From: Qipengyuania vulgaris
GTDB taxonomy: Bacteria > Pseudomonadota > Alphaproteobacteria > Sphingomonadales > Sphingomonadaceae
DNA: 64,000 nt
Assembly (NCBI RefSeq): GCF_009827325.1
Contig: NZ_WTYC01000008.1
Coordinates: 74,501-138,500, forward strand
Reading direction: 5' to 3'
The translations under genes and the position numbers were made by a program. The stretch's first letter is position 1; each line of letters begins with the position of its first letter. The notes beneath the pieces were generated by a model. The model was not told the origin of the DNA. It saw only the letters and a list, made by a program, of their open reading frames with translations, and made no database searches. Positions 3,624-53,375 of the stretch are shown one piece after another.

Positions 3624-3743
3624 GGAAGGGCATCTAGGTTTTATACTTCTGCAATCAATGGTCACAGCCCAAGTCTGCGCACGTGACCTCGGCCAGAGGG
3701 CAGCAGCCAGAAAGCCAGCAAAGGGCCATGGGAAACAGGAAGG

Positions 3744-35935: not shown

Positions 35936-36016
35936 TAGTGGCCTCGCGCTACTCTTCGTGCCAGCAACTGGCGGATGGGACCGGGCAGCAGATCCGGCCG
36001 GGACGAGGATATCTGT

Positions 36017-37549: not shown

Positions 37550-38942
37550 GCTCCTCACTACTACCGCCGCTCTCGCATTCCTTGCTGGCTGCGCACAGAC
37601 CGGTGAGGCCCCGGTTGCATCGGCTTCTTCATCGCCATGGAAACCGCAGAGCAAGGTGAGCATCCAGCATCCGGAGTGGTCACGCGATGCCGTGCTCTAC
37701 CAGATTAACACTCGCCAGTTTACCGAGGAAGGCACGTTCAGGGCTGCGCAGCAAGAACTACCCCGGCTGAAGGATTTGGGAGTCGATATCCTCTGGCTCA
37801 TGCCGATCCATCCGATCGGGTTGGAAAATCGCAAGGGTACGCTCGGCAGTCCCTATTCGGTTCAGGATTATTACGCTGTGAACCCCGAGTTCGGGACAGA
37901 GGAGGACTTTCGCGCCTTCCTTGATGCTGCGCACGAACAGGGCTTCAAGGTCATACTGGACCTCGTCGCCAATCATACCGCATGGGATAACGATCTCGCG
38001 AAACAGCATCCTGAATGGTACGAGAAAGATTGGAAGGGTGCGTTCCGCCCCACGCCATGGTGGGACTGGTCCGACATCATAGATCTCGACTGGTCGCAGC
38101 CCGGCGTGCGTGAGCATGTCGGCGGCGCGATGGAATATTGGGTGCGCGAATTCGGGGTGGATGGCTATCGCGCCGATGTAGCCGGCTATGTTCCGCTAGA
38201 TTTCTGGGAGACGATGCGGGCTCGTCTCGAAGCGATCCGTCCCGTGTTCATGCTTGGCGAGGTACAGCAGACTGCCTTCCACTTCGGCGCTTTCGATGCC
38301 ACCTATGCTTGGGACTGGCACAACACCTCTAAGAATGTCGCGCAGGGCAAGGGCAATGCCACCAGCTTCTATGGCTATTACGCCGAGAACGAAAGCCTAT
38401 GGCCACGCGACGCGATGCGTATGACCTACATCGAAAACCACGACAGCAATGCGTGGGAAGGTACGATGGATGAGAATTACGGTCCGGCGTTGGAAGCGAT
38501 GACCGCGTTGTCGTTCGCTGGCGAAGGCTTGCCGCTGATCCACAATGGCATGGAGGCCTGCAACGCCAAGCGGCTCGCGTTCTTCGAGCGCGACCCGATC
38601 GATTGGAATCAGAGTGCAAACTGCGCCTATGGAGACCTGCTGAAGGCTTTAATTGTTTTCCGCGAGACCAACTCCGCGCTCGCCAACGGCCATTGGGGTG
38701 GCCGAATGCAAAAGGTGGAAACCGACCGCCCCGAAAGAGTGTTTGCATGGGTGCGCAGGAACCACGAAAACAAGGTTGTGGCGTTCTTCAACTTCAGTGA
38801 AGAACCGGTCACGATCAGGCTCAAGAGCAAGCTAGCCAATGGCACTTACATTCGATTCAAGACCAATGAATCGGTAACCTTGCGGGCGGGCGAGAATCTC
38901 GACCTGCCAGCTTGGGGGTACCTTCTGTTGGCCGACGATTAA
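37542..38942 (+). CDS. GH13 alpha-amylase-family lipoprotein
   Basis: This is a second membrane-anchored GH13 enzyme, 466 residues. The start ATG 37542 follows AGGAG and overlaps the permease end by 8 bases; it gives a lipoprotein signal (MRKLLTTTAALAFLAGC, Cys17). GH13 regions are intact: LDLVANHTAWD (I), VDGYRADVAGYVP with the nucleophile Asp (II), MLGEVQQ with the acid Glu (III) and IENHDSNAWEG (IV). INTRQFTEEGTF and MPIHPIGLENRKG are seen in GH13 enzymes that act on short dextrins. The exact specificity cannot be read off. Confidence 0.9.
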   Translation: MRKLLTTTAALAFLAGCAQTGEAPVASASSSPWKPQSKVSIQHPEWSRDAVLYQINTRQFTEEGTFRAAQQELPRLKDLGVDILWLMPIHPIGLENRKGTLGSPYSVQDYYAVNPEFGTEEDFRAFLDAAHEQGFKVILDLVANHTAWDNDLAKQHPEWYEKDWKGAFRPTPWWDWSDIIDLDWSQPGVREHVGGAMEYWVREFGVDGYRADVAGYVPLDFWETMRARLEAIRPVFMLGEVQQTAFHFGAFDATYAWDWHNTSKNVAQGKGNATSFYGYYAENESLWPRDAMRMTYIENHDSNAWEGTMDENYGPALEAMTALSFAGEGLPLIHNGMEACNAKRLAFFERDPIDWNQSANCAYGDLLKALIVFRETNSALANGHWGGRMQKVETDRPERVFAWVRRNHENKVVAFFNFSEEPVTIRLKSKLANGTYIRFKTNESVTLRAGENLDLPAWGYLLLADD

Positions 38943-39276: not shown

Positions 39277-39909
39277 ATGGGATACTCACGATTTGATACA
39301 ATCACGCGACATCGTCCTGCATGGAATGCTGGTAAAAATGTGGGAACGAAGCGTCCGCTGACGCAGAAGCAGATCTGGGCCATTCGCTTTCATCTCGATC
39401 GCGAAGGACGATTGAGGGACAAGGCCCTCTTCGATCTCGCCATCGACAGTAAGCTGCGCGGATGCGATTTGGTGAAGATCAAGATCGGTGACGTTGTTGC
39501 AGGCGCCGATATCCGCAATCGGGCTACTGTCATTCAGCAGAAGACAAACCGACCGGTGCAATTCGAGCTGACTGTCGATGTTCGAGCCACACTGCTAGCG
39601 TGGCTGGAAAGGCGAGGCGGCTCAACAAGCGACTATCTGTTCCCGAGCCGTGTGGACCACGCCGGCCATATGAGTACGCGGCAATATGCACGCCTGGTCG
39701 ATGAATGGGTGACAGCGATCGGGCTGCGCAAGGCAGAATATGGGACGCACTCACTTCGGCGGACGAAGGCGGCGATGATCTATCGCGCGACGGGCAATAT
39801 TCGAGCTATCCAGATCCTGCTCGGCCATACAAAGATCGAGAACACGGTGCGGTATCTCGGCGTCGATGTCGAAGACGCCTTACTTCTGGCAGAGCGCACG
39901 GAAATCTGA
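39277..39909 (+). CDS. Small tyrosine recombinase/integrase (catalytic domain only)
   Basis: This is a 210-residue site-specific recombinase lacking the usual N-terminal DNA-binding (SAM-like) domain, the same compact build as FimB/FimE invertases. Catalytic features are present: the first Arg in DSKLRGCDL, an upstream Lys in the beta-hairpin (QQKTNRPV), THSLRRTKAAMI with His and Arg, LLGHTKIENT and the nucleophile Tyr in VRYLGVD. No phage or transposon genes surround it. It is flanked by members of the dispersed repeat family on both sides, and a hairpin overlaps its ribosome site. It could be a housekeeping-like lone integrase or a remnant of an element. Confidence 0.85.
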   Translation: MGYSRFDTITRHRPAWNAGKNVGTKRPLTQKQIWAIRFHLDREGRLRDKALFDLAIDSKLRGCDLVKIKIGDVVAGADIRNRATVIQQKTNRPVQFELTVDVRATLLAWLERRGGSTSDYLFPSRVDHAGHMSTRQYARLVDEWVTAIGLRKAEYGTHSLRRTKAAMIYRATGNIRAIQILLGHTKIENTVRYLGVDVEDALLLAERTEI

Positions 39910-40207: not shown

Positions 40208-41041
40208 TCAGAATCCCCAGAACCGGTTGCAGTCGATTGGGTCGAGGCCTGGATCGCGCAGGCGCCTATCGGCATCCCGCTGCGCCCGCTCCATGGCGCA
40301 GGCATTGGCGCGCCGCAGGATTTGCGGATCGGTCGCGCCGCTGCGTTCGCCATAGCGACGCAGGGCAGGATTGAAGCGTTCGGGCGAGGCGAATGGATTG
40401 CTGACGGTCGTTACGCTCACGACCTTGTGGTCCCCGCAGGCTTCAGCCAATGCCGGATCGGGATCGGAAGGTTCGCCATACCAACCTGTTTCTGCGGTCA
40501 GCCCCACACGCACGTTGCCCATCGTATTAGGTTCGTAACGCGATCCGAACGCAAGGTATCCTTCCTCATCTACGACAAGCGCGGTGGAGTATGGAAACTG
40601 CACCAGGGGATCGTCATCCCCTTTGCGGTCCAGGAAGAAGCACCCATCACGCAAAACGATTGTATGTTGGCTGCCTAGGTCGAGCACGGCGCCCGCCGGC
40701 TCTCGATCCTGCGGGAACGCCCTGATATAGTAGGATAGCTCTGCCGGCATCGCAGGGCGAGCGATTTGCGGCTCTGCTTCAATCGGATCGGGCGGCCATT
40801 TTTTGTCGAGATTAGTAAATGGCGGTGGCAAAGGCGCTTCGAGGATCGTGAGGCGGCCGCTCCGCTCTTGTAGGGCACCTGTCGGGATAGGCGCAGGCTC
40901 GATACACGCAGCTTCGGCATTGCCGGATTGCATGACGATACGCCCATTCTCGTCAAAGGCGCAAAGCGGCTGTTCCGGCTCGGATTTCGAGCAGGCTACA
41001 GCGAGCACGAGGAGAGGTAGCAAAAGGTAAACCCGCTTCAT
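40208..41041 (-). CDS. Lipoprotein with RDGC domain (last gene of serpin operon)
   Basis: Not a recognised family. The 277-residue product has a lipoprotein signal (LVLAVAC, Cys17) and one copy of the cysteine domain shared in this operon: IVLRDGCFFLDRKGDDDPLVQFP at residues 128-150, GYLAFGS at 161-167, ACGDHKVVSV at 201-210. A tail motif, RRANAC (243-248), also occurs in the first protein of the operon (residues 346-351). It lacks the N-terminal RYTSDP domain of its larger relatives. The start overlaps the previous gene as ATGA. An envelope location is inferred from the lipobox; the function is unknown. Confidence 0.8.
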   Translation of the reverse strand: MKRVYLLLPLLVLAVACSKSEPEQPLCAFDENGRIVMQSGNAEAACIEPAPIPTGALQERSGRLTILEAPLPPPFTNLDKKWPPDPIEAEPQIARPAMPAELSYYIRAFPQDREPAGAVLDLGSQHTIVLRDGCFFLDRKGDDDPLVQFPYSTALVVDEEGYLAFGSRYEPNTMGNVRVGLTAETGWYGEPSDPDPALAEACGDHKVVSVTTVSNPFASPERFNPALRRYGERSGATDPQILRRANACAMERAQRDADRRLRDPGLDPIDCNRFWGF

Positions 41042-41874
41042 CGCGCCCTGTCTCCCGCAAGAACGTGGTCCCCGCCTGCAATAATCAACTCGCCGTTCGG
41101 ACCGACGAGGTAACGCGGCCCTGACCGCATGAGGTCGGCGAATGCATCATCAAGGGCAACATAGTCACCCCGGCAATTCTGTTCGGTGCTGGCGATTTCA
41201 TCACCGACGATCAGGCGTCCATCGCCAGTTTCATATGTGCCAAACAGCGTGGCGCATGATGCAAGCCCCTGCCATGTGTCCGAGGCAAAACGCAGATGCC
41301 GTTCGTCAGGACTGGAACTGGCGGTTTCGCCGTCGATCGTGCGGATTACCCATTCCGTGTCGGCCAGCGCCTGGCCCGGCGGATTTGCGACGGGAATACG
41401 CATCGGGTCTGGCGAGCGGCTTTGGCCGGTTTCACTGTCCATGCGGGTGAGTTCGATGAAATGATCGTGGGAGCGCAGGCGCAGTGTATCCCCGGACAGG
41501 CGGACCTTAGGATAGGCGCGGAACAGCTCGGCAATCGATTCTTCCCAATCGCCCACGCGCCCCGGGCAGGCCATCGCATCACCGCCCCAGCTGTGCACTG
41601 CAATCCGCCCGTCGGCGTACAGGGCCGTGCCGCCGAAGGCGTTGCAGCCGACGGAGCCGCCCGCCGCATCGGCCGAGAAGGCCAGATATGGCGCCGGCTC
41701 CGACACCGGCAGAGCCTCGCCGCCGATCCGCACGATCCGCCAGCTTCCCTCGACCACTGCCAGGTCAGAGATGGTGGCCGCCGATCGATTATCCGCCGGA
41801 TCGGCCGCCTGACCGTCGGATGTCGGATGGCAGGCGCAAAGGGCTGCCGCCAGGAGCAGCGCGAAACGTCTCAT
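41038..41874 (-). CDS. Lipoprotein with two META/HslJ-like domains
   Basis: This is a 278-residue product with a lipoprotein signal (LLLAAALCAC, lipobox Cys about residue 15). Two tandem repeats resemble the META/HslJ fold: VEGSWRIVRIGGEALP followed by GGSVGCNAFGG, and LADTEWVIRTIDGETA followed by GLASCATLFGTYE. HslJ-type proteins are periplasmic or outer-membrane lipoproteins linked to stress tolerance, without a known enzymatic activity. The start ATG 41874 overlaps the stop of the previous gene; a longer frame to 42189 is a shadow. It is joined to its downstream neighbour by an ATGA overlap. The role in the operon is unknown. Confidence 0.8.
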   Translation of the reverse strand: MRRFALLLAAALCACHPTSDGQAADPADNRSAATISDLAVVEGSWRIVRIGGEALPVSEPAPYLAFSADAAGGSVGCNAFGGTALYADGRIAVHSWGGDAMACPGRVGDWEESIAELFRAYPKVRLSGDTLRLRSHDHFIELTRMDSETGQSRSPDPMRIPVANPPGQALADTEWVIRTIDGETASSSPDERHLRFASDTWQGLASCATLFGTYETGDGRLIVGDEIASTEQNCRGDYVALDDAFADLMRSGPRYLVGPNGELIIAGGDHVLAGDRAR

Positions 41875-43808
41875 CGCAGCATCGGCTTCAGGATGACGTC
41901 GCCGCCGGGCAGCGGGACGGTGTAATCGGGATTGATCGGGCAGGTGCTCACGCAGATAACGTCTGGGAAGCTGTGCTCGTCGATCCAGCGCACCACCTCG
42001 GCCACCGCCGGCTCGGTGATCGGTGTGCCGTCTGGGTTGTTCCCCGGACAGGCGACCGCATGCGCATAAACAATCCAGCCCGCTTCCGAGCGCGCCCTCC
42101 CGACTGGCGTGCAGCCATCGAAATAGGCTGTAACCCCGCCATAACCGTGGGGATTGCCAAAATTCGTGCTGCCGTCGTATTCGATCCAAAGACGGGTCGG
42201 ATCGGCCAGTTCGCGCTCCCCGATACGGGTAATGAAATAGCGGCGCACTGTCGGGTTGCCGAAATTGTCGCTTGGCCGCGGGGGGGCGAGCTCGGCCATT
42301 CTGTTGCCGACCGAAATCGCCAGCGCGCGCGCTTCTTCCACCGACGTTCCGGCAAAGGAGGCAGACCCCAGCACATCGACGCCCGCCACCGCCTCGGCCA
42401 GCCTGCCATCTTCTATCCGCATTAGCGGTAATGTCATCTGGACCACGCGGGTGTCGAACGACGGTGGATTACCTTCCATCAGGCTGCGCGCCAGATAGCC
42501 TGTGCGACTGGCCAGCAGCACCACTTCGGCCCCCGGCTCAGGCGTGATAACAGGCGAGCGGCTCTTGCCGTCCAGCGCGGGCATGCGCACGAGCAGCAAG
42601 TCGCCCGTCTGCCTTCCGCCGCGCCACCCTTGCCGCACGCGATAGAGATAATCGAGCGACAATCCGTCGCCGCGATCGACCGGACGAATTCCTTCGAGCA
42701 CCGCGCGCACGACGATGGGTGCGATGGCGAAGTTTTCGGCGAGGGTCCGCGAAGTGCCACCTGCCGCGGGAACCACCCCGGCGGATTGCGCCTGTGCATA
42801 TTGCCAGGAAGAAAGCCCTGCGAAAGCGAGGGCGCGGGCATCTGCGGATTGTTCGACACCCGGCTGCCCCTCTCCGCCGATCCCGATGGCCCGCAGGGCG
42901 ATGCCATCGCGCAGTTCCGGTGCCATGCGCGCTGCTGCTTCGGCCAGCTTCGCAGCCCATGGATGCGGTTCGATTGCCTCAGCCTCGGGAGCGAGTTCGG
43001 GAAAGCGTGCGGCAGGGACCAAGGTGGCGCGCTCTCTCCCAATCATAACCGTCATCCGGGTTTCGAACGGTTCGGCGCGGTAGCTGACTTCGCCGGCAAG
43101 TTTCGCCAACTCGTCGCCCAGCGTCCGAACTCGGCAGCGTTCACTCATCCGGTAGCGTGATCCACCAGTGCGCACTTCTCCATCGCGGTCGGTGTGCCAT
43201 CCATTAGAAGCAAAATCGCAGTTTTCCGCATCGACGCTGTATTCTGGTCCGAAGGTAACGCGGGTTAGTTCCTCGCCGCGATAGGGCCTTCCGCGTTGGT
43301 CGGCGAGCAGCCACTCACCGCGCACGAAATCTTCGCGCGGGACAGTCGCTGCCACATCGACCTTGGCGAACACCCATGTTTCGCCGCCGCGCTCGATCCG
43401 GATTGTATTGCCATCAACCGGAACGATGCGCACTTCACCGGTATCGAACGGGGCTAGCCGCTCCTGCGGATTGCAATGCGAGGCAAGGCGTGTGTAATCG
43501 TCTAGCGCGTATCGGCCATCGCCCAGATCGCGCAGCTGGCCCTGCGTCAGCTCACAACCACTGCCGAAGGAGAACATCGGGCTCCAGATGGTAAGCCTGT
43601 CTTCCCGCGATACACCCGGCCCGGACACCGGCCGCCATTCGCCGTACAGAGCCTTCACCGCATCGGTCATCGGCGCGAGTCTTCCTGGCTCTGACGACTG
43701 CGGCGCAGGCGGCAGCGGCATGGCTGGCGGCTCGCGCGAAGGGCCGGAAGTGGCACAGCCTGAGAGCGCGAGTGGACCAGCGATAGCAACAAAAAATTTA
43801 AGGGACAT
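41871..43808 (-). CDS. Large lipoprotein of unknown function with META-like N-terminal part
   Basis: This is a 645-residue exported protein with the lipobox LALSGC. The first third seems to hold two META-like units (LYGEWRPVSG with FGSGCELTQG; VRGEWLLADQRG with SVDAENCDFASNG), a pattern shared with the next gene. The middle contains LLLVRMPALDGKSRSPVI and VVLLASRTGYLARSL, reminiscent of an OB-like beta domain. The C-terminal part has several Cys residues (FDGCTP, AVACPG, ICVSTCP). It overlaps the previous gene by 11 bases and the next by 4. I do not recognise a full-length family, and no catalytic motif is visible. Confidence 0.75.
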   Translation of the reverse strand: MSLKFFVAIAGPLALSGCATSGPSREPPAMPLPPAPQSSEPGRLAPMTDAVKALYGEWRPVSGPGVSREDRLTIWSPMFSFGSGCELTQGQLRDLGDGRYALDDYTRLASHCNPQERLAPFDTGEVRIVPVDGNTIRIERGGETWVFAKVDVAATVPREDFVRGEWLLADQRGRPYRGEELTRVTFGPEYSVDAENCDFASNGWHTDRDGEVRTGGSRYRMSERCRVRTLGDELAKLAGEVSYRAEPFETRMTVMIGRERATLVPAARFPELAPEAEAIEPHPWAAKLAEAAARMAPELRDGIALRAIGIGGEGQPGVEQSADARALAFAGLSSWQYAQAQSAGVVPAAGGTSRTLAENFAIAPIVVRAVLEGIRPVDRGDGLSLDYLYRVRQGWRGGRQTGDLLLVRMPALDGKSRSPVITPEPGAEVVLLASRTGYLARSLMEGNPPSFDTRVVQMTLPLMRIEDGRLAEAVAGVDVLGSASFAGTSVEEARALAISVGNRMAELAPPRPSDNFGNPTVRRYFITRIGERELADPTRLWIEYDGSTNFGNPHGYGGVTAYFDGCTPVGRARSEAGWIVYAHAVACPGNNPDGTPITEPAVAEVVRWIDEHSFPDVICVSTCPINPDYTVPLPGGDVILKPMLR

Positions 43809-44514
43809 CGACGTAATCCTTGCAAAGATTTTTCGCGTCGCGCGGTCGCGGAGCGGGTGGTGGAGGCGGGGCGGATGGTTCCGGATCCCGCAACGGGGCG
43901 ACCGGTGGCGGGATAACGGGCGGGCCTTCGCGGTAGCCGGGCGGCGGCACGAATTCGGGCGGTGGCTGCGGGAACATCAGTCCGCATTCCTGCTCCGCGC
44001 TCCGCATGCCGACGCTGACCAGCGTTTCCAGCACCGCGTCGCAATCGGCATCGCTGTAGCAGGTCCCCCAGAAGATCGGCTCTTCCTGCTCTTGCCATAT
44101 TGCCACCGCTGCACTGGTCGCGCCGTCATAATGGTTGGTGATCAGATAGCGCGTGCCGCCATCGGCCAGATGTTTGCGAAAGGCGGGCCGGCCATTGATG
44201 GTAATGGGATCGCCCCAATGATCGTCTTCCATCGCTTTTCCGAACTGATCGAGGGCATAATCGAACCGCAGGTCGCCCGAACGCCAGACCAGGTGAACAC
44301 TGTCGTCCCCCAACGGACATTCGCTCGCACCTTTCGCGCAGGTTTCTGTCGCCCCATCGAAAGTCAGGCCGACTGGGAAAGAGAAGCCGAAACCGTCGAG
44401 CGAGATGCCTATGGAGGGTTGCACCTCCGGTTCGGGCACGACGATATCGGTCGGCTCGCTGCAAGCGCAGAGAAACAAGATGGCGGCGCAGGCCCAACTA
44501 CAACTCAATCTCAA
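43798..44514 (-). CDS. Proline-rich lipoprotein of unknown function
   Basis: This is a 238-residue product beginning at TTG 44514, which overlaps the stop of the previous gene as TTGA. The signal peptide MRLSCSWACAAILFLCAC ends in a lipobox-like CAC. A beta-rich central part (residues about 30-175) with paired Cys (ETCAKGASECP; GTCYSDADC) is followed by a strongly proline-rich tail (residues about 185-228) like those that span the periplasm or peptidoglycan. No known domain is recognised. Its position in the middle of the coupled operon indicates a joint role with the other envelope proteins. Confidence 0.72.
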   Translation of the reverse strand: MRLSCSWACAAILFLCACSEPTDIVVPEPEVQPSIGISLDGFGFSFPVGLTFDGATETCAKGASECPLGDDSVHLVWRSGDLRFDYALDQFGKAMEDDHWGDPITINGRPAFRKHLADGGTRYLITNHYDGATSAAVAIWQEQEEPIFWGTCYSDADCDAVLETLVSVGMRSAEQECGLMFPQPPPEFVPPPGYREGPPVIPPPVAPLRDPEPSAPPPPPAPRPRDAKNLCKDYVDVP

Positions 44515-45743
44515 GGTAGAGAGCCCTGCCGATTGCCCGCGCCGCCGTTGAGCAGCCAGATATTGCGCTCGATTCTCTGCATGGTGGCGAAGGTCGAGGC
44601 CTCGTCCACGCCCGATAATTGCAACATGTCACCGGTCTCCACATCCAGCGGTCCAACCCGTGCGACGAAGCTCTGGCCAGCGAAACCCTGCGCCTCGCCG
44701 TCGACTTCCAGAGCAACAAGGTGCGGCTCGCCCATCGCTTCCCCAGACTTGCGGATGGAAACCGTAAAAGCCTGCGCGACTTCGTAGGCCAGCCCGGTGC
44801 CATAGCGCTGCATCGGCGAGAGATGTTCGCGCAGATATTCCGCCCCGCCATGATAGGGCACGCCCACGCGGCCGAGCTGGCTACCGGCGAGATAGGGACC
44901 GACCCTCGACAACCACGGGCGGGCCTGTTCTTCGGGCGATGGACGCACTTCCTCGATGAAGCCGCCGCGATCGTAGAAAGCAGCGCGCACCTTGCCGCCG
45001 GCGGCGCGGATCGCGCGCTCCGCTGCAACTCCGTCGCTGCCGGGCTCGAGGTGAAGCAGCGTGGGCCCGGCGAGCCCGGGATCGCTACCCGCCGCCGCCA
45101 GACGCACCGACCACAGCCAGAAGGCTTCGTCGTCGAGCGACACCGGCACGAAGCCGAAGGCCGGATGATTGGGCTGGATGCTCCTGCCGTCGCTCAGCGC
45201 CAGCCTGTCCATCACGCGCCCCTCGCTGTCGCGCATCACGACGTAGAATCGCCCGGTCTGTGCGGAAATGGGGGACGGCGTACACGATGTGACCGGCAAC
45301 TTCGGCTCAGGCGGATCGGTGCGTTGCTGAGGGAGCAGGCGGCCGACCCATTCCCGATTATAGGCGAACGGAGTGACCTGGCCCGTGTCGCTCGTGAAAT
45401 GTTCGAGCGGGGCCGAGAAGACCCGCTCGGCCTCGCGATTGACCGTCATCCCCTGCCCGAACACAGTGAAGCGGTCGGCGCTGTTGCCCTTGAGCCGCGC
45501 AAGGGTGCGCAGGGTCAGCACGCCGCTCGGCTGCTCGCCCAGGGCGCGAACACCGTCATCCTCGACTAGGACGAGATCCACATAGGTGGCGGCATCGAGC
45601 ATGACCTTGGCGAAATACTGTCCGCTGGCGTAGCCCACCGGCTCGGGCCGCTGCGTGTACATGCAGGCTTGTGCGGGTGTGCCAAGAGCGACACTGCAGA
45701 TTGCGGCAGCCATGGCGATGGCCGGGAAGATCTTGCGGATCAT
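44511..45743 (-). CDS. Exported protein of unknown function, mature N-terminus probably Cys
   Basis: This is a 410-residue protein with a Sec signal (AAAICSVALGTPAQA, cut before Cys27). After cleavage it would start CMYTQRP. The next 90 residues are beta-rich, with LVLVEDDGVRAL, LRTLARLKGNSADRFTVFGQG, a layout loosely like bacterial NTR/TIMP-type OB folds; this resemblance is weak and structural only. The previous gene carries a similar segment near its C-terminus (VRWRVIENIKGDTSPG, FVYGQGM). The middle shows QTGRFYVVMRDSEGRVMDRLALSDG. It overlaps both neighbours as ATGA or TTGA. The function is unknown. Confidence 0.75.
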   Translation of the reverse strand: MIRKIFPAIAMAAAICSVALGTPAQACMYTQRPEPVGYASGQYFAKVMLDAATYVDLVLVEDDGVRALGEQPSGVLTLRTLARLKGNSADRFTVFGQGMTVNREAERVFSAPLEHFTSDTGQVTPFAYNREWVGRLLPQQRTDPPEPKLPVTSCTPSPISAQTGRFYVVMRDSEGRVMDRLALSDGRSIQPNHPAFGFVPVSLDDEAFWLWSVRLAAAGSDPGLAGPTLLHLEPGSDGVAAERAIRAAGGKVRAAFYDRGGFIEEVRPSPEEQARPWLSRVGPYLAGSQLGRVGVPYHGGAEYLREHLSPMQRYGTGLAYEVAQAFTVSIRKSGEAMGEPHLVALEVDGEAQGFAGQSFVARVGPLDVETGDMLQLSGVDEASTFATMQRIERNIWLLNGGAGNRQGSLP

Positions 45744-48103
45744 CTTACCTGTTGTCCCTTGACGCGATAGGCTTGCTGGATGGGTCTGATGCGGGTGCGC
45801 AGTTCTTCGACCGGGATGGGCCCGGGATAGAGGCTGACGGGCCGCGCGACCCCCTTTTCATCGATCCGGGCGGGCGAAATCCAGGGGATCGAGATGTACC
45901 AGTCGCCCTCGGTCCGCGCCGCGCCTTCGCCGCCGTGGACGTGGGCCATATGGCGATAGAGCGCGTCGTTGAGGTGCAACACCCAGCGCGATCCCGGTTC
46001 GAGCGACTGCGGCAGACCGGGGATCAGGAACGGCTCGTCCATCCCCTGACCATAGACGAACTCGCCCGCCTCGTTCGCCCGCTCGCCCGATGCCATGCGC
46101 TGGCGCAATTCGGTTCCCGGGGAGGTGTCGCCTTTGATATTCTCGATGACCCTCCAGCGGACGGACGAGAAGAACCCGTCGGGCCCCGGATCCCTGAGGT
46201 CGATCCCGACCGGTTCGGCGATGACGATATCGGTCGCGGTCATGGCCCGCTTTTCGAGCGTCTGCCGCCCGTTCATGTCCTCGAGCGCGGTGACGGGATC
46301 GAACCCGGCCCGGCGCAGCTCCTCGATATCTTCCACACCGATGCCATAGGCGACCAGCATGTGTGTGCGCTGCAGCGATCCGGCTTTCGAGGGCTTGCGC
46401 ATGACCTCGCGCCATTCCGTCTGGCCCGGTGGCGGCGGTTCGGAAGTGGCAAAGGCCGTATCCTCGACGATGGCCCGGATGGCTGCAAAATCGGGATGCG
46501 CCTCCAGTGGATACCAGATCGCTTCAGGGTCTTCGCGGCGACCGGGGATGTCGGGGTTGAAGAAGGGTTGCTGCCAGTCCGGTTCGACCCGCATGAGCGC
46601 CGGCCAGACGATCGCATCGCGCTGGCTTACCGCAGCAATGGCCATCAGGTCGGCAGGGCGGACGGAAACGAACCCTTGAAGGTCGTCGATCCTCACTTCA
46701 GCGGCGATATCGGCGGCACGTAATTGTTCCTTGATCGCATCTTTCGCTTCACGCAACGCACTGGCGCCGTGCGGGACTTCCTGTGCGGTTACGAAAGGAA
46801 GCAGAGCGGCAGGAGCCAAGGCCTCCTTCCTGGTGCCGGCGGTGTGGAAGATATGCGCCGTGCCCTGCCCCTCGTCGACGTAGATCTGTGCAACCACATC
46901 GCCGCGCTCCAGCATCACGCCGTCGCGCCACGCCTTGAGTTCGGCGACCCGCGCCATGTCGGCCTCGTAATCTGCGATGGCAGCGGCCCGGCTTCCCAGT
47001 TCGTTCTGGCGCATGGAAATGGCACTCTCGCGCGCGGCTGCTGCCCATTGTTCGTAAGGCTGAATGCCGCGCACGACGCGATAGGGACCGAGGCAGCCTT
47101 CATTGCCGACGACATTTTCCGGCGGCGTGACTTCGCCCGGCTGCAGGCCGGTAAGGACCACGCGGCTGTCCGCATAGACCTTCGCGCCGGAAAACAGGCT
47201 CGTCACGGCTACCCGCTGCGGATCGGTCAGGTCGAGCGCCATGTGCCGCTCCCACACGGCGATCTTCGGCTCCTCGCCTTCGGGATAGAGCCACAGGCAA
47301 TTGTCCCGCAGTTCGAGCCGCGCGGGCACATCGGGGACACCCACGAGCGTACGGATACCGCCATCGGTGCGATTGGGAAATTGCGGAAAGCCCGTCACGC
47401 GCGTGTCGCCCGCAGGTTTCGGCGGCGGGGCGAGAGGGAAGGCAGGCGGCTCTTTCAGGATGACGTAGTTGGGCAGGTCCAGTTCCCCGCGCTCCGCTGC
47501 CGCACGGATCGGCGCCGCTTCCTGCGCGAGATCGATCTCCACCGTGCCCGTCATCTCGCTCGCGCCCGCGCCGTGCCAGGCAAAGCCGAGACGGATGAGA
47601 TCGTTGACGATCCGGTCCTGCGTATCGCGCAATTCGATCAGCGACGGGCCGGGTCGCTCGACGGGGAGGTAGATCGGATCGCTGGTATATCTGGCCAGCG
47701 TCGCCGCCGCATCGCGGGTGAAGGCCACGGCGATGCCGTAGGTCGGCTCGTGCTGGATCCACAGCCCGGCGAAGGTGTCCGGCTCCTTCTCGCGCAGCAG
47801 CCCCTGAAGCGAGCCGGGATCGGCGTCTGGCGGACCTTGCGGGCGTGGCCCCGGTTCGTCGCGCGGTCCGATGGAGCCGCGCAGCTGGATCTGGAAGCGC
47901 CGATCGGCCTCCTCCACGCTGACGCAATAGGTGCGGGCGTAAATCGCGGTTTCCGAATAGGGCCCCTTGAAATTCTCGATCCCGTCGATTTCCTCCGCCG
48001 TGAGATTGGGGCAAGTCTCGGACAGTGGTTTTTCGTCCTGCGCATGGGCAGCAGGGGCGTGCGCCAGCACCATCAGGCTGGCGGCAGCAAGGAGGTGTTT
48101 CAT
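45740..48103 (-). CDS. Large exported protein with shared N-domain and RDNC domain
   Basis: This is the largest product of the operon, 787 residues, with an ordinary Sec signal (MKHLLAAASLMVLAHAPAAH, no lipobox). Residues about 101-220 match the N-domain of two other operon proteins (AVAFTRDAAATLARYTSDPI at 125-144). Residues about 262-345 are a diverged copy of the cysteine domain (LELRDNCLWLY, then NEGCLGPYRVVRG). The second half is unique, ending in a beta-rich segment with VRWRVIENIKGDTSPGTELR and SRWVLHLND. ATG 48103 overlaps the serpin stop as ATGA; the longer frame to 48367 runs antisense-free through the serpin gene and is rejected. The function is unknown. Confidence 0.78.
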   Translation of the reverse strand: MKHLLAAASLMVLAHAPAAHAQDEKPLSETCPNLTAEEIDGIENFKGPYSETAIYARTYCVSVEEADRRFQIQLRGSIGPRDEPGPRPQGPPDADPGSLQGLLREKEPDTFAGLWIQHEPTYGIAVAFTRDAAATLARYTSDPIYLPVERPGPSLIELRDTQDRIVNDLIRLGFAWHGAGASEMTGTVEIDLAQEAAPIRAAAERGELDLPNYVILKEPPAFPLAPPPKPAGDTRVTGFPQFPNRTDGGIRTLVGVPDVPARLELRDNCLWLYPEGEEPKIAVWERHMALDLTDPQRVAVTSLFSGAKVYADSRVVLTGLQPGEVTPPENVVGNEGCLGPYRVVRGIQPYEQWAAAARESAISMRQNELGSRAAAIADYEADMARVAELKAWRDGVMLERGDVVAQIYVDEGQGTAHIFHTAGTRKEALAPAALLPFVTAQEVPHGASALREAKDAIKEQLRAADIAAEVRIDDLQGFVSVRPADLMAIAAVSQRDAIVWPALMRVEPDWQQPFFNPDIPGRREDPEAIWYPLEAHPDFAAIRAIVEDTAFATSEPPPPGQTEWREVMRKPSKAGSLQRTHMLVAYGIGVEDIEELRRAGFDPVTALEDMNGRQTLEKRAMTATDIVIAEPVGIDLRDPGPDGFFSSVRWRVIENIKGDTSPGTELRQRMASGERANEAGEFVYGQGMDEPFLIPGLPQSLEPGSRWVLHLNDALYRHMAHVHGGEGAARTEGDWYISIPWISPARIDEKGVARPVSLYPGPIPVEELRTRIRPIQQAYRVKGQQVR

Positions 48104-49371
48104 TCGGCCTTCTCCACTGGATCGGGGTCGGCAATGCGCCCGAAAAAGATCAGCGCGCCGCTGGCCCGGTCGCGGATGCTCAGCAGGAACGGGCGATCGA
48201 CGATCATCGACGGCACGTCCGGCATGATGCGCGAACCGGTCACGACGATCTTCACTGACGTCACCGCCGCTGCCTCCGTCCCTCTCTCGTTCACACGGAG
48301 GAAGGTTGCGTGCGCGACATCGTCGATCGCGAGCGGCGCGGCAGCCATACCGGAGAAGTCTGCGCAATTGTCGCTGAAGGCACAGGGTATGCCCGCTGCG
48401 ATCAGCGCCGATTTCACGCTGTCATCGAAACGCGCCTCGAACCGCGGCAGGCGGAGCAGGATTTCGCGTTTCTCTGCCGCGCCGAGATCGAACTTGCCGT
48501 CGCTACCCTGCGTGGCGAGATTGAACGAAAGACCGTTCAGATCGCGTTCCCAGCGGCGCAGGGTCGCCATGTCGCGTGGCAGAAACACTTCCATGGTGAA
48601 GCGCCCGTCCTTGCCATAGGGCAATTGCACCGCTTGCCCCTCACGCGTTTCGCGGTAGGCCATCGGCGCGATGCGTTGCATCATGTAGATGGGCTTCCTT
48701 GTCCCGTCGCCGCGGGTGAACTCGCCGGTGGAGCCGTCCTCGAACGGCACTGACCAGTTTGCCTTGAACCATACCGCATTAGTGAGCACGGCGGCGGTAA
48801 GATCGTTGAACCCGGCGGGGTCCACGATGCTGCTAATCCGCTCGCGGGTCTGCTCGCTGACCCAGCCGTTGATCGTCGCGGCAGAACCCAGCGGGTCGCC
48901 GCCGAAATCGACCGCCCGCGCCGTCGCGCCAAATCCGTCCCTAACCGTCCGCAGATAGTCCGGCGAAAACGTCAGGCGATCCGACAGCCACAGCGCATTG
49001 GCGACCGACAAGGCCACCTTGTCGTCTCCCGTCCGCGTCAGAAATCGATTATAGTCCTTTACCAGCAGTTCGGGCCTTGTAGCAGCGTCCCAGCCCAGCA
49101 GGGCGCGCATTTCCGCTTCGGTCTGGCCGCTTGCACCGGGCAAAGCGAGGCCGATGCCTTCGCTCAGTGACAGCGGCGAGATAAACAGATCGTCGTTCAG
49201 CTCTGCCGCTTCGGCGAGCACGGGATAGAGCCTTGCCGCGAGCTGCGCCTGGCCGGAGGTGATGTCGTAAGAGGTGGCCTGCTGTGTACCTTCAGCGACG
49301 GAGCGTGCGGGCGTGGTCGTGCAGCCGGTTGCCAGCAGCACGCTGGCCGCGCCTGCCAAGAATGCTCTCAT
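48100..49371 (-). CDS. Serpin-family protease inhibitor lipoprotein
   Basis: This is a 423-residue serpin, normally a suicide inhibitor of serine or cysteine proteases. It has a lipoprotein signal (VLLATGC, Cys17). Serpin landmarks are present in order: LFISPLSLSEGIGLALPGAS (helix B region), NAVWFKANWSVPF (strand 3A), the inhibitory hinge RVNERGTEAAAVTS (359-372) and the end signature DRPFLLSIRDRASGALIFFG. With Gly364 as P15, P1 falls near Thr378 in IVVTGSR, suggesting an elastase-like target rather than trypsin. The Ala-rich hinge argues for a working inhibitor. It overlaps both neighbours as ATGA, placing it in the middle of the lipoprotein operon. Confidence 0.93.
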   Translation of the reverse strand: MRAFLAGAASVLLATGCTTTPARSVAEGTQQATSYDITSGQAQLAARLYPVLAEAAELNDDLFISPLSLSEGIGLALPGASGQTEAEMRALLGWDAATRPELLVKDYNRFLTRTGDDKVALSVANALWLSDRLTFSPDYLRTVRDGFGATARAVDFGGDPLGSAATINGWVSEQTRERISSIVDPAGFNDLTAAVLTNAVWFKANWSVPFEDGSTGEFTRGDGTRKPIYMMQRIAPMAYRETREGQAVQLPYGKDGRFTMEVFLPRDMATLRRWERDLNGLSFNLATQGSDGKFDLGAAEKREILLRLPRFEARFDDSVKSALIAAGIPCAFSDNCADFSGMAAAPLAIDDVAHATFLRVNERGTEAAAVTSVKIVVTGSRIMPDVPSMIVDRPFLLSIRDRASGALIFFGRIADPDPVEKAE

Positions 49372-50744
49372 TTATCCTGCTCCAGAAATTCGGCCAGCCA
49401 TTCGGGCAGTGGTCGCAAGTATCCTTCCGGCGTACGGCACAGCCCGGACACGAGGCTGGTGCCCGCCGGACATTCGGATGCGTCCATCACCGGGCGCGGT
49501 GGTATGTCGACGGTCATCGCGGCGGTGATCGGCGGCAGGGCGATGCCCTCTTGCATCACCTGTTGATTGGCCGCCTGCCGCCGGTCGAGCCATGCCATCG
49601 CGCGTCGCGCCTGAGCTTCACCAAGGCCATAGCTGCTTTGCAGGCGTCGCAGCGCATTGGCATTGTCGTCCACGGCACCCTGCCGCGCCAGCGCATTGGC
49701 GCTTTCCAGGCCTTCAACCTTGATGACCTTGCCCCGCCCGCAGGCGGCGTGGATCGGATCGATCAGTTCGGGGATATCCACCTCGTAAACGGAGCCCATG
49801 AAGGTCAATGTCTCGCCCACGCGGGCATAACGGGGCGTCTCTGCCGACCCGAATGCGAGATAATTTGCGCTGTCCACGAACAGGCGCGCGCCGAAGGGGA
49901 ATAGCACCAGCGCATCATCGCGGTCGGCAGCGCGGAAACAGCCATCGTTCAGCACCACTTTGACTTGGCTGTTGATGGCATTCAGCGCGCCTGCGGGCCG
50001 GTCATGGCGCGGGAAGATGCGGATATGCGGTGCAACGGCGACGGGAACGGCCTCGTCGCGCACAGCCGCACGCGGCGGACTGCTGATGGGAACAACAGGG
50101 GCGGCGCGAAAGACCAGTTCCACCTGCTCGGGTAAGGTCACGCCCTTGCGTTTGGCCAGCGACCGGAATTCATCCTCCGAGACAATGATCTCGACATTGA
50201 CCGTCTGCGAGCGGATGCCCGTCCCCTGAATCACGCGATCTTCCCGAAAGGTCTCCCACATGAAGTCGGCGGCGGCCATCAGCTCTTCCTGCGACCAGCG
50301 CACGGTCTCGCCGCGAAACGTGGGATTGCGGCTATATTTACTCAGCGTGGCAGGACCATCACGCAAAAATTCGAAGACGACACCGAGTTCGCCTTCATTG
50401 TCATAATGCAGGGTCTGGAAATTTCCTCGCTCTTCCCTGCGCAGTCGCTCTGCAAGCGCCTGAACCTCGTCCATCACGCTATTCTGATAATCGGCGACGC
50501 GCATGAATTCCGCATCGGCAGCATCCTGATCTGCCGTGCGCGGTGCGGGCGGTGCTGGCTCGACAGGATCGAACGCGGCAGGCGGTGCTGACAAGATCGT
50601 CGCAAAGCCGTCCGCGTTGAAGTCTGCCCGGAACGGCTGTGACGGTTCGGAAACGTCCCCTCCCGGTTTGCTTGCGGTGCAGGCCGCCAACGTCATGGAC
50701 GCGCTCAATACCGCCAGCCGGGCAGCGGCCCCTCGAAACTTCAT
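49368..50744 (-). CDS. Lipoprotein with shared N-domain and NDGC domain
   Basis: This is a 458-residue lipoprotein (SMTLAAC, Cys22). Residues about 100-215 are the N-domain (ERGNFQTLHYD, VVFEFLRDGPATLSKYSRNP). Residues about 262-345 are the cysteine domain (VVLNDGCF at 263-270, DDALVLFPFGARLFVDSANYLAFGS, AACGRGKVIKVEG). A C-terminal segment has DASECPAGTSLVSGLC, a pair of Cys that may be bridged. The same two-domain order is seen in the first and fifth proteins of the operon. ATG 50744 overlaps the previous stop and the stop overlaps the serpin start. The function is unknown. Confidence 0.8.
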   Translation of the reverse strand: MKFRGAAARLAVLSASMTLAACTASKPGGDVSEPSQPFRADFNADGFATILSAPPAAFDPVEPAPPAPRTADQDAADAEFMRVADYQNSVMDEVQALAERLRREERGNFQTLHYDNEGELGVVFEFLRDGPATLSKYSRNPTFRGETVRWSQEELMAAADFMWETFREDRVIQGTGIRSQTVNVEIIVSEDEFRSLAKRKGVTLPEQVELVFRAAPVVPISSPPRAAVRDEAVPVAVAPHIRIFPRHDRPAGALNAINSQVKVVLNDGCFRAADRDDALVLFPFGARLFVDSANYLAFGSAETPRYARVGETLTFMGSVYEVDIPELIDPIHAACGRGKVIKVEGLESANALARQGAVDDNANALRRLQSSYGLGEAQARRAMAWLDRRQAANQQVMQEGIALPPITAAMTVDIPPRPVMDASECPAGTSLVSGLCRTPEGYLRPLPEWLAEFLEQDK

Positions 50745-51166
50745 TCGGCAACCTCTTCCATTTTGTGCAGCCGCATAACATTGCCCTTCGGGCATGCGCG
50801 CGGGATGCTAACCCCATAGAAACGCTCGATATAGGAAATCGGCCATCCCTTGCCGTTCTCGCGCAAATTACCGCCGGCGCCCTGCATCTTGTGGCCAAAT
50901 TGAATGGTGTTGCCGGTGCGCGGTTCGTAGAGTCCGTCGCCGCTCTCGGTGAGGACGACGTCGGGATCGAACAGCACCGTAAAATTCCGCTGATAGCTCG
51001 GAGCCACGATGCACCCGTCGCGAATTTCGAGCGTGCCGCGATAGAGCGCTTCGCCCGCAAAAGCGTCGCGCGCGATAGTGATCGGCCGCGGCTGTTCGCG
51101 CGCGCTCTGACATGCAGCAAGCAACAGCGCGCCCGACACAGCTACCAGTCTGCCGGTTGTCGGCAT
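50741..51166 (-). CDS. Small lipoprotein with stand-alone RDGC domain
   Basis: This is a 141-residue lipoprotein (ALLLAAC, Cys19) that consists almost entirely of a minimal cysteine domain: TLEIRDGCIVAPSYQRNFTV from residue 45, a short strand-rich middle (NTIQFGHKMQGAGG) and IPRACPKGNVMRL at 121-132. It is the shortest version of the domain in the operon and so defines its limits. ATG 51166 starts 25 bases inside the previous gene; a longer frame to 51226 lacks a signal at its N-terminus. The stop overlaps the next gene as ATGA. No relative outside the operon is recognised. Confidence 0.78.
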   Translation of the reverse strand: MPTTGRLVAVSGALLLAACQSAREQPRPITIARDAFAGEALYRGTLEIRDGCIVAPSYQRNFTVLFDPDVVLTESGDGLYEPRTGNTIQFGHKMQGAGGNLRENGKGWPISYIERFYGVSIPRACPKGNVMRLHKMEEVAE

Positions 51167-52680
51167 TCGAAAATCTCCGGCCCCGAATAGAGATAGATCG
51201 GCCCGTCGCGGTTGGGGTAAATCCACAAATCGGGCAGCCCCTCACGCTCGGCGACGATGCGAAAGCCGGGCAGCACCATGCCTTCGTCGATAAAGCCGTT
51301 GGGATGATCCCACAGCGCCGCGCCTTTATCGGCCCAGAAAATCATATTGGATGAGTGATTGGTTGCGATGAGAACCTTGGGTCGCTCGGACGGATCACGC
51401 TCTTCGAATCGGCACACACCATTGCGCGTTGGCTGCAGCTTTTTGGGCGGAGAAGGCGGGCGGAGCGGTTCTGTTGCGTGCGTAATCCGGGCATCGGGCG
51501 GCAGTGGCGGAGGCGGAGGCGGCACGCCCGGATTGCCCCAAATGCCATACTGCTTCGCGCATTGCGTAGGGTGCGCGCGCGTGCCGCGCAGACGATTGTC
51601 CGCCATCGTCTGTTCCTGTTCCAGCAGGCAGGCATTGGCGCGGCGCATCGCTTCGGCGCTGCTGATCCCTTCGCGGTCACGGTATTCGCGAACGGCGAAC
51701 CAGTCGTTGCCATAGCCTGCCGCCTGGTCGGCTGAACTCACCGCTACCACGCGATGCGATCCGCACGCGGCGATCAGGCCTGCGGGCGGATCGGGCACTT
51801 CCCGCTGGTGGCCCAGCTGCAGCCGCGTGCCCACGCGCCCCAGCTGTCGCTGGTCCGACGAATTGCGCGGACGGAACGCAAGATAGCCTTCGTCATCACG
51901 ATACAGCCCAACGGTGAACGGAAACATCGCCAGCGGATCATCGTCACCCGGGCCATCGATAAACAGGCAACCATCGCGCAGCACCACCGCTTCGAATGTG
52001 GCGATGTCGGGCGTCGGGCCGACGAGCCGTTCTTGCTGCGCATAATAGCGAACGGCTTGTTTCGCATCGGAGGAAACCGCTGGCAGTTCCGGATCGGCGC
52101 GGGGATCGAAGCGAAGAAGCAGGTTGGCTGGAATGGCCCAGCCCTTCTCTTCCTGCAAAGCAACGAACTCTGCGCGAGACATGGTAATGGTCAACCACGG
52201 CACGCCCATATTGCCGAAGCCGGGTGAGGCTCGCTCGATACCTATCCGCTCTGCCCAGCCGCGCACGACCCGATCCTGATCCGCGCGCGAGAACCCGGCC
52301 ATTGCCGCGCTGAACAGCGGATCGGAGGTGTAGCGTGAAAGCGACGCCGCCGGATCGCGCAGGAAGAAGGCAATGGCGCGAACGGTGCCGATGCCGTCAT
52401 TTTCCGGCCCGTCGGTCCAGCGCCAATCGATCCCGCCGAAATTGCCCATCTCGCCGCGCTTCAGGCGGCGCAGCATCGGCAGGTGCTGGTTTTCCAGCGC
52501 ATCGGCAAAGCGCATGCGCCGGTCTTCGATAGTCGGCACATAGGTGTCGGGGCCAGGCTGTGTGATCGGCGTATAGGGCGGCGCTTCGACGATCGAGGCG
52601 TAGCCGTCACTATCTGCACCCGAATGCTGTGCGGAGCAAGCCGCCAGAGTGGCGCACAGGATAACAGAGAGCCGAATCAA
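51142..52680 (-). CDS. Lipoprotein with shared N-domain and RDGC domain (first gene of serpin operon)
   Basis: This is a 512-residue lipoprotein (CATLAAC, Cys15). Residues about 71-195 form the N-domain (RGEMGNFGGIDW, IAFFLRDPAASLSRYTSDPL). Residues 230-315 form the cysteine domain (VVLRDGCLFIDGPGDDDPLA, MFPF, EGYLAF, AACGSHRVVAV). RRANAC (346-351) follows, as in the last protein of the operon, then a proline-rich linker (385-412) and a C-terminal part ending IFECRQPADW. The start is TTG 52680 preceded by a full AGGAGGTGAT ribosome site. It begins a ten-gene run of overlapping genes. The function is unknown. Confidence 0.8.
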   Translation of the reverse strand: MIRLSVILCATLAACSAQHSGADSDGYASIVEAPPYTPITQPGPDTYVPTIEDRRMRFADALENQHLPMLRRLKRGEMGNFGGIDWRWTDGPENDGIGTVRAIAFFLRDPAASLSRYTSDPLFSAAMAGFSRADQDRVVRGWAERIGIERASPGFGNMGVPWLTITMSRAEFVALQEEKGWAIPANLLLRFDPRADPELPAVSSDAKQAVRYYAQQERLVGPTPDIATFEAVVLRDGCLFIDGPGDDDPLAMFPFTVGLYRDDEGYLAFRPRNSSDQRQLGRVGTRLQLGHQREVPDPPAGLIAACGSHRVVAVSSADQAAGYGNDWFAVREYRDREGISSAEAMRRANACLLEQEQTMADNRLRGTRAHPTQCAKQYGIWGNPGVPPPPPPLPPDARITHATEPLRPPSPPKKLQPTRNGVCRFEERDPSERPKVLIATNHSSNMIFWADKGAALWDHPNGFIDEGMVLPGFRIVAEREGLPDLWIYPNRDGPIYLYSGPEIFECRQPADW

Positions 52681-52829: not shown

Positions 52830-53375
52830 ATGTATTCGGGTGTGAAGATCTCTCGCTTCATCTGGCTGGTTTCAGCTATTGCCGCAGTCCTCCTTGCGGC
52901 CGGGGGAAGTTGGTATGCTTTTTCGCCGAGACTGGCGGTTGCGGCCCTCAGCGATTGGGAAGCTGCGCCCGAAGAGTTGCTAGCCCGGTACGACCGACCG
53001 CGCGTGCGAGCAGCATTCGAACGGCAAATGTTACCTCAGGTCGATACCTATCAGCCCCCATATACGAAGGGCGTCGTACTGGATGCGATGTCGGACCCGC
53101 GAGCAGTTAGGTTGTTCATCAACGAACCTTACGGCGAATGGCAATTCGCAGCAGCAGCCGGATTGCCTGAAGATTTTCCCGGGGGAGAGCCTGCGGGCCC
53201 CATGCCGCGGATAATGGAAACTACCGACAGTTGGTCACTCGAATGGTCTGGACTCAATGAAGTTGTTGCGACACCGTCAGGCCGCAACGAAGTACGTGGC
53301 AACAGTTATCGCTTCGAGCGGGATGGCCTCAGCTGGCGTCTGGTTGCCATCGATCTTACCGTGCCTATCCGATGA
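52830..53375 (+). CDS. DUF2939-like membrane-anchored protein
   Basis: This is a 181-residue protein with one N-terminal hydrophobic segment (FIWLVSAIAAVLLAAGGSWYAFSP) that anchors it or serves as a signal. The following WEAAPEELLARYDRPRVRAAFERQML matches the pattern of DUF2939 proteins, where a short helical repeat follows the anchor. The C-terminal half is beta-rich (GNSYRFERDGLSWRLVAIDL). The family has no known function. It is transcribed away from the lipoprotein operon and shares its upstream region with it. GTG 52842 is an alternative start. Confidence 0.65.
   Translation: MYSGVKISRFIWLVSAIAAVLLAAGGSWYAFSPRLAVAALSDWEAAPEELLARYDRPRVRAAFERQMLPQVDTYQPPYTKGVVLDAMSDPRAVRLFINEPYGEWQFAAAAGLPEDFPGGEPAGPMPRIMETTDSWSLEWSGLNEVVATPSGRNEVRGNSYRFERDGLSWRLVAIDLTVPIR

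Follow-up and report, generated by a model that had tools for sequence, protein, structure and literature searches.

A run of ten overlapping genes for exported proteins occupies positions 40208-52680 of the minus strand in a 64,000-nucleotide stretch of Qipengyuania vulgaris DNA (assembly GCF_009827325.1, contig NZ_WTYC01000008.1, positions 74,501 to 138,500), hereafter called the window. Sequence and profile comparisons suggest that this operon encodes an envelope-anchored inhibitor (“orphan immunity”) array directed against S1 proteases, probably foreign ones, an interpretation whose chances we judge to be slightly better than even. A fuller version is offered only tentatively: the operon would be a mobile, translationally coupled and envelope-anchored inhibitor bank. 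It would derive from alpha-lytic-type pro-regions and from partner lipoproteins no longer accompanied by their protease, with a serpin and META proteins as reinforcement; spreading on plasmids and islands, it would shield sphingomonads from the S1 proteases with which predators and competitors lyse bacteria.

The genes, termed g1 to g10, and the domains recognized within them (lengths in amino acids, aa) are as follows.

g1: 51142-52680, minus strand, lipoprotein, 512 aa, TTG start
g1, domain common to the g5 N-terminus: 52066-52503 (approximate), minus strand
g1, DGC domain: 51706-52038 (approximate), minus strand
g2: 50741-51166, minus strand, small lipoprotein, 141 aa
g3: 49368-50744, minus strand, lipoprotein, 458 aa
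g3, domain common to the g5 N-terminus (about 50061-50483) and DGC domain (about 49701-50027), minus strand
g4: 48100-49371, minus strand, lipoprotein serpin, 423 aa (PF00079, 5.7e-80)
g4, reactive-centre loop region with inhibitory-type hinge: 48187-48291, minus strand
g5: 45740-48103, minus strand, exported protein, 787 aa, with pro-region-like domain, DGC domain and a remainder without recognized relative
g5, pro-region-like domain: 47414-47962 (approximate), minus strand
g5, DGC domain: 47069-47341 (approximate), minus strand
g6: 44511-45743, minus strand, exported protein, 410 aa
g7: 43798-44514, minus strand, lipoprotein, 238 aa, TTG start
g8: 41871-43808, minus strand, lipoprotein, 645 aa
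g9: 41038-41874, minus strand, lipoprotein, 278 aa, two META domains (PF03724, 1.6e-32)
g10: 40208-41041, minus strand, lipoprotein, 277 aa, with DGC domain (about 40397-40720) and helical tail

Neighbouring genes overlap at all nine junctions, by 25, 4, 4, 4, 4, 4, 11, 4 and 4 base pairs (bp) from g1 to g10, and the start of g1 is preceded by AGGAGG, which resembles a ribosome-binding site. The original prediction, made from the window alone, had correctly reported overlap at every junction, but listed ten values for the nine, with one “4” too many. By inspection, a signal sequence opens each of the ten products and a lipobox is present in eight (g1-g4 and g7-g10), as had been predicted, while g5 and g6 appear to be ordinary substrates of signal peptidase I. 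In a Pfam search only g4 (serpin, 270 bits) and g9 (META, 112 bits, in two stretches) exceeded the cut-off, which bears out the predicted serpin and double META protein; nothing was above the cut-off for the other eight, and in NCBIfam for none of the ten. Pfam recognized no protease domain or other enzyme in the ten proteins, in line with the enzyme-free content noted at the outset. The partial paralogy that had been proposed is also real: one domain is common to g1, g3 and g10 by search, and g5 joins them after iteration. In g1 the order is a domain of the g5 N-terminal type, a cysteine (“DGC”) domain, a helical tail shared with g10, and a C-terminal domain.

A first link to S1 proteases is provided by g5. 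A profile of its N-terminal domain (residues 23-245, 8 orthologs) was aligned with a profile of 25 S1 pro-regions with an hhalign probability (Prob) of 98.3 and an E-value of 2.5e-14 (single comparison), compared with at most 0.9 for the controls, namely seven other operon families, a reversed profile and eight column-shuffled profiles. A HMMER model of the pro-regions, run on a set of operon loci, matched the g5 copies there with E-values of 1e-16 to 9e-9 (3.2e-11 for g5 of the window). In whole-genome scans with the full S1 profile, g5 of genomes G056, G018, G001, G045 and G510 was matched only over positions 70-178, which is the pro-region (G000 denotes the genome of the window, other G numbers denote further genomes, and L numbers extracted loci). 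From these comparisons we conclude that the g5 N-terminal domain is homologous to the pro-regions of alpha-lytic-protease-like S1 proteases, and Pfam finds no S1 protease domain in the same protein. The related domain of g1 and g3 was compared with the g5 N-terminal domain using a profile of g1, g3 and single relatives without g5 rows, which gave Prob 98.7 (controls at most 0.4). Higher values of 99.9 (g5 versus g1/g3) and 99.7 (DGC domain versus g5) were discarded because g5 rows were present in the profiles; without these rows the comparisons gave 98.7 and 92.1, respectively.

The S1 proteins used here, relatives of a protease encoded beside the operon in G023 (see below), were gathered from plasmids (20 records; five regions) and from 22 of 298 genomes of the family. 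Their full profile matches streptogrisin and alpha-lytic protease chains, and in a PDB search with the pro-region profile the alpha-lytic pro-region chains 2pro/3pro/4pro were the best of three matches (E 3e-4); the Pfam family Pro_Al_protease matches 4 of 21 S1 members (best 0.0015). A PF02983 search of 249 Pseudomonadota genomes gave no match even for controls and is thus uninformative on absence. The sphingomonad enzymes consist of a signal peptide, a pro-region and a protease, and their genes often adjoin one for a small DGC-type lipoprotein. Such a pair stands at the end of the operon in G023, where a convergent gene, whose exported product combines an N-terminal pro-region with an S1 protease bearing His and Ser motifs, overlaps the gene of a small lipoprotein (its partner). 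Plasmid-borne S1 peptidase genes of Pseudomonas, Xanthomonas and Methylobacterium (L164-L167) are followed by a gene for a small protein; the one at L165:3731-4264 encodes a free-standing protein related to the pro-region (S1 model, E 2.4e-33).

The second link is the DGC domain, common to g1, g3 and g10, which spans some 110 residues and is marked by a conserved Asp-Gly-Cys together with another Cys. The g5 copy was missed by the first-round model, entered at E 5e-4 on iteration and then reached 1.6e-12. The DGC profile without g5 rows scored Prob 92.1 against g5 (controls at most 0.9) and 91.8 against the partner lipoproteins, and had weak scores against g2 (37.6; 37.6-47.6 across profile versions) and x400 (29.4), one of two extra genes, x400 and x435, found in other operon copies. 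A profile of the lipoproteins adjacent to S1 proteases gave Prob 96.1, 96.0, 94.6 and 91.2 against g2, x400, x435 and the DGC profile, respectively; unrelated families reached at most 5.6, and reversed and five shuffled profiles (against DGC) at most 0.3.

A hidden Markov model (HMM) built from nine partners was then run against 6338 open reading frames (ORFs) of 86 partly overlapping loci (E up to 0.01). Among its 42 matches, 13 adjoin an S1 ORF (13 of the 31 such ORFs); eight of these are training members and the remainder, in L198, L055, L213, L247 and L217, are not. One match lies beside a weak S1 relative (L248, also used in training), 23 belong to the operon (g2, x400, x435 and one g10; g2 at 1.7e-6), and five are others (L098:16471, L104, L107, L141 and L056). 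On a plasmid of Sphingobium sp. YBL2, a g1/g3-type gene, a DGC lipoprotein gene and an S1 protease gene occur within 4 kb. By profile comparison, the DGC domain of g1, g3, g5 and g10, as well as g2, is related to the small lipoproteins adjacent to S1 proteases.

The serpin g4 is full-length (PF00079 profile positions 3-370 of 370). Its hinge, read from the alignment, is GTEAAAVT, with small residues before the reactive centre, as in the inhibitory type; the other operon copies read have GTEAAAVT or GTEAAAAT, with GTEASAST in L050. The protein is therefore predicted to be an inhibitory-type serpin. Its loop presumably exceeds the one in human antitrypsin by about five residues. Serpins were found in 24 of 397 genomes of the family. 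Lipoprotein serpins of the g4 type, all with one identical loop, occur without the operon in three genera (L137, L138 and L141; contigs of 24-31 kb), and one solitary g4-type serpin shares a contig with an S1 protease (L246). One of the L137/L138/L141 genes lies, by eye, beside a relaxase-like ORF.

The META assignment of g9 (112 bits against a cut-off of 24) is accompanied by a match between its two halves (Prob 94.5) and by a sub-threshold NCBIfam match to HslJ. META-type lipoprotein genes adjoin S1 protease genes in L200 (E 2.2e-5) and L240 (g9 model, E 2e-4). The relationships of g5, of the DGC domain to the partners, of the serpin and of the META protein are in this way established by comparison.

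Other domain assignments were tried and rejected. META-like units in g8, suggested by the original prediction, found no support (Prob 0.6 and 0.2 against the g9 halves). Netrin/TIMP-like domains in g5, g6 and g8 were dismissed (mutual profile comparisons Prob 0.1-16.7; no match in PDB or Pfam), as were PDB matches of g8 to designed repeat proteins (1e-10), which lacked an accepted stretch. PDB searches with g5, g6, g8 and the g1/g3 family returned nothing credible.

These relationships suggest how the operon might act. Its exported, mostly lipid-anchored products would bind chymotrypsin-fold S1 proteases, either in the periplasm or on the surface of the cell, and restrain them there. A pro-region-like domain is joined directly to a DGC domain in g5, without any protease, and the same layout is seen in g1 and g3 with the related domain; g2 and g10 (x400 and x435 in other copies) carry the partner-lipoprotein part. 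Proteases of this fold would also be trapped irreversibly by the serpin g4, and g9 is of a type that occurs beside such proteases as well. We infer that the pro-region-like domains are inhibitory because mature alpha-lytic protease is inhibited very tightly by its own pro-region. According to PMC2829044, the active site is crossed by the junction between pro-region and protease, and folding is 10^9-fold faster with the pro-region. The products may form one joint assembly. The targets would be mainly foreign, so that the operon would protect against bacteriolytic proteases; such targets are favoured because no S1 protease of this type is detectable in G000 or in several other genomes with the operon. 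Scans with the S1 profile gave no match in G000, G266, G436 and G468 (the latter 90% complete) and only g5 in G045; the three Trypsin-family matches of G000 fail the S1 model, and by these searches the protease is undetected in the genome of the window. The inhibitory or protective envelope role first proposed thus gains from the sequence kinship to alpha-lytic-type pro-regions and their gene partners, and a physical coat or complex, with predators as the source of the proteases, is conjectural.

The distribution of the operon was examined in related genomes. A search with g3 gave matches in 20 of 99 relatives, every one in the same genus, and near-full g5 matches were present in seven of 60 genus genomes (G000, G001, G018, G023, G045, G053 and G056). 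Within the genus the operon has the same order in G018 (g4 in two pieces), G045 and G001 (g1 cut, g7 absent, g8 in two pieces), and plasmid pYT40 of Porphyrobacter sp. YT40 carries a same-order operon minus g7. In other genera of the family the order is retained with all ten genes in G266, with all ten and two extra members in G436, without g2 and with a shorter g1 in G328, and with a broken g1 and no g7 in G510; g7 is thus absent from some copies, and where x400 is present it sits before g4. Reduced operons are found in G053 (g4-g5-g6) and G183 (g4-g5-g6-g8), and partial copies in L033, L038, L051, L100 and L103. G468 has g3 and a g5-g6 fusion of about 1330 residues, a single ORF at L133:2967-7004 (minus strand; 1332-1345 aa), with the serpin placed divergently on the opposite strand. 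Searches of viral contigs with four queries found no relatives. The set therefore recurs in several genera, but single g1/g3 relatives, solitary serpins and reduced or broken copies exist too, so that the scattering which the original prediction had named as a refutation is seen in part.

Identity to the window proteins is mostly 59-81% in L097 and L098 (33% for g6 of L097). The g1/g2 overlap is 25 bp in seven of eight loci having both genes, and overlaps of 4 bp are kept at g4/g5 in 10 of 11 loci and at g9/g10 in nine of nine; the remaining junctions vary more (25, 4, 4, 4, 1, 16, 11, 4 and 4 bp in L097, from another genus). Ratios of nonsynonymous to synonymous substitutions (dN/dS, NG86) against L037, L034, L097 and L098 range from 0.10 to 0.50, with 0.10-0.22 for the serpin; they are rough, as many dS values exceed 1, and g2 is missing in L098. 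The operon genes are under purifying selection. As the same order recurs in genera where synonymous sites are near saturation, it is kept beyond chance. With order and most overlaps kept across genera, and g5 and g6 fused in one genome, the products very probably act together, which supports the original proposal on this point.

The operon is also mobile. Two features flank it in the window.

52830-53375, plus strand: divergent exported 181-aa gene adjoining g1, also present in L033, L034, L037, L054, L097, L103 and L142
39277-39909, plus strand: tyrosine recombinase by the operon end (PF00589, 5.6e-22), a mobile-element context

Around the pYT40 copy lie two tyrosine recombinases and an IS91 transposase. 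In G000, a further copy, which is partial (L038; G000:C6, 1-13429), fills a 13.4-kb contig with a recombinase, IS91, g3, a serpin, other relatives that resemble x435 and x400, and a gene whose product matches META below the threshold. It starts with a related recombinase-IS91 pair and has an integrase-like gene near its far end (by eye). Among the five genus members compared, dS of rpoB is 0.29-0.48, whereas it is only 0.00-0.01 for operon segments of G018 and the second G001 copy (g7-g10) and of G056 and pYT40 (g2-g6); elsewhere the same operons reach dS of about 1. The near-zero values indicate that pieces of the operon have been exchanged between species. The genes flanking the operon mostly differ between genomes (by eye).

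The divergent 181-aa gene goes with the operon in other genera too; it belongs to no Pfam family and has a weak PADLOC match to candidate PDC-S55 (1.4e-5). Beyond it, the right flank of the window holds a two-ORF MmeI-like restriction system and a resistance-nodulation-division (RND) efflux set, and the left flank holds the tyrosine recombinase. The MmeI-like restriction-methylation protein (53584-56929, plus strand) is split across two overlapping ORFs and is possibly broken. Further features of the window are a major facilitator superfamily (MFS) transporter gene followed by one for an alpha-amylase-family protein (35975-38942, plus strand) and an HtrA/Deg-type trypsin-PDZ protease gene (2490-3665, minus strand), whose product does not match the S1 family at issue. 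ARAGORN detected no tRNA in the window. The L037, L098, L103 and L051 copies adjoin apparent arsenic- or heavy-metal-resistance genes (by eye).

Several results weigh against an inhibitor array. PF02983 itself matches none of g1, g3 and g5, and in the genome scans g5 of G000, G023, G053, G266, G436, G183 and G328 stayed below the threshold. A direct match of g1/g3 to the pro-regions (Prob 61.5) turned out to be due to two g5 rows in the profile, and without them the value is 0.8; since the clean profile lacks a direct match, the pro-region reading of g1 and g3 runs via g5 only, and our confidence in the array was lowered on losing this match. The partner profile is weak against the narrower g5 DGC and g10 profiles (21.7 and 15.8), as is the DGC profile without g5 rows against x435 (2.0), and the DGC partners could be anchors or chaperones rather than inhibitors. 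No recognized relative was found for g6, g7, g8 and most of g5, and AlphaFold models are of low confidence (pLDDT, the predicted local distance difference test score, 38 with the window paralogues only and 42 for the g5 N-terminal domain alone). No arms-race signature was seen in the serpin loop, which is conserved among copies and not hypervariable. Finally, S1 matches besides g5 occur in four of the seven operon carriers (G001, G018 with a stop codon, G023 and G056; a weak match in G053 was not counted) versus six of the 53 other genomes of the genus (Fisher one-sided p 0.011), a surplus that fits control of the cell's own enzymes as well.

Such control is a serious rival, although we regard it as rather unlikely. 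The lipoproteins and serpin would then be foldases, anchors or safety inhibitors for S1 proteases that the cell itself secretes and encodes elsewhere in its genome, and both the surplus of S1 genes in carriers and the protease adjoining the operon in G023 agree with this. Yet the operon persists in G000, G045, G266, G436 and G468, where g5 apart there is no detectable client, and 13 of the 31 S1 genes already adjoin a partner lipoprotein of their own. It appears improbable that the operon serves envelope stress or surface structure in general, with its serpin, META and pro-region-like folds as protein-binding or chaperone modules without protease inhibition. META proteins such as HslJ are linked by name to heat shock, g9 has its sub-threshold match to HslJ, g6, g7 and g8 lack an assignment, and g1 and g3 reach the pro-regions only through g5; against this, the serpin has a conserved hinge of inhibitory type, and the pro-region-like domain of g5, the partner lipoproteins and the META-type lipoproteins all point to S1 proteases.

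Least probable is a protease-independent selfish function of a mobile element (surface exclusion, or stabilization of a plasmid or island). The recombinases and IS91 around the pYT40 copy, the recombinase at 39277-39909, the related recombinase-IS91 pair beside the partial G000 copy and the near-zero dS between species are all compatible with it, but a position as cargo accounts for the mobility without implying function, and other copies adjoin ordinary chromosomal genes (by eye). An anti-phage system was rejected as well: the nine operon proteins other than the serpin had no PADLOC match at E up to 0.01.

The proposed inhibitor array consists of parts of known kinds. The g5 N-terminal domain shares homology with the alpha-lytic/streptogrisin pro-regions (PF02983; 2pro/3pro/4pro), but occurs without the protease, as a fusion with a DGC domain, and the g1/g3 domain has diverged past direct detection. 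MEROPS families I9 and I29 are free-standing relatives of a protease pro-region that serve as inhibitors; the operon would apply the same principle to another protease class and fold. Like the bacterial serpins (miropin, siropins, chloropin; PF00079), g4 is full-length with an inhibitory-type hinge, but it is locked in a coupled ten-gene operon. Some prokaryotic serpins have been classed as membrane anchored (PMC8233489), in a text that contains neither “operon” nor “lipoprotein”. As in META/HslJ lipoproteins (PF03724), g9 has a META domain, here twice and coupled to a serpin and pro-region-like proteins. The plasmid S1 peptidase pairs (L164-L167) follow the same protease-partner logic, of which the operon retains the partner side only. 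Among the open-access literature matches listed, judged by title and start of abstract, no such operon is described, and the assembly is new in the sense that it has no counterpart among them.

If the proposed function is correct, a bacterial serpin would gain a place in a dedicated multi-protein envelope system, and the alpha-lytic class of proteases would acquire free-standing inhibitors that resemble its pro-regions. In addition, a testable class of targets is linked to two domains that had no name, namely the DGC domain of the partner lipoproteins and the orphaned pro-region in g5. In bacterial warfare the proteases would be weapons and the inhibitor banks mobile armour, and some bacteria related to Erythrobacter, the carriers of this operon, may in this way shield their surface from the proteases of rivals or predators.

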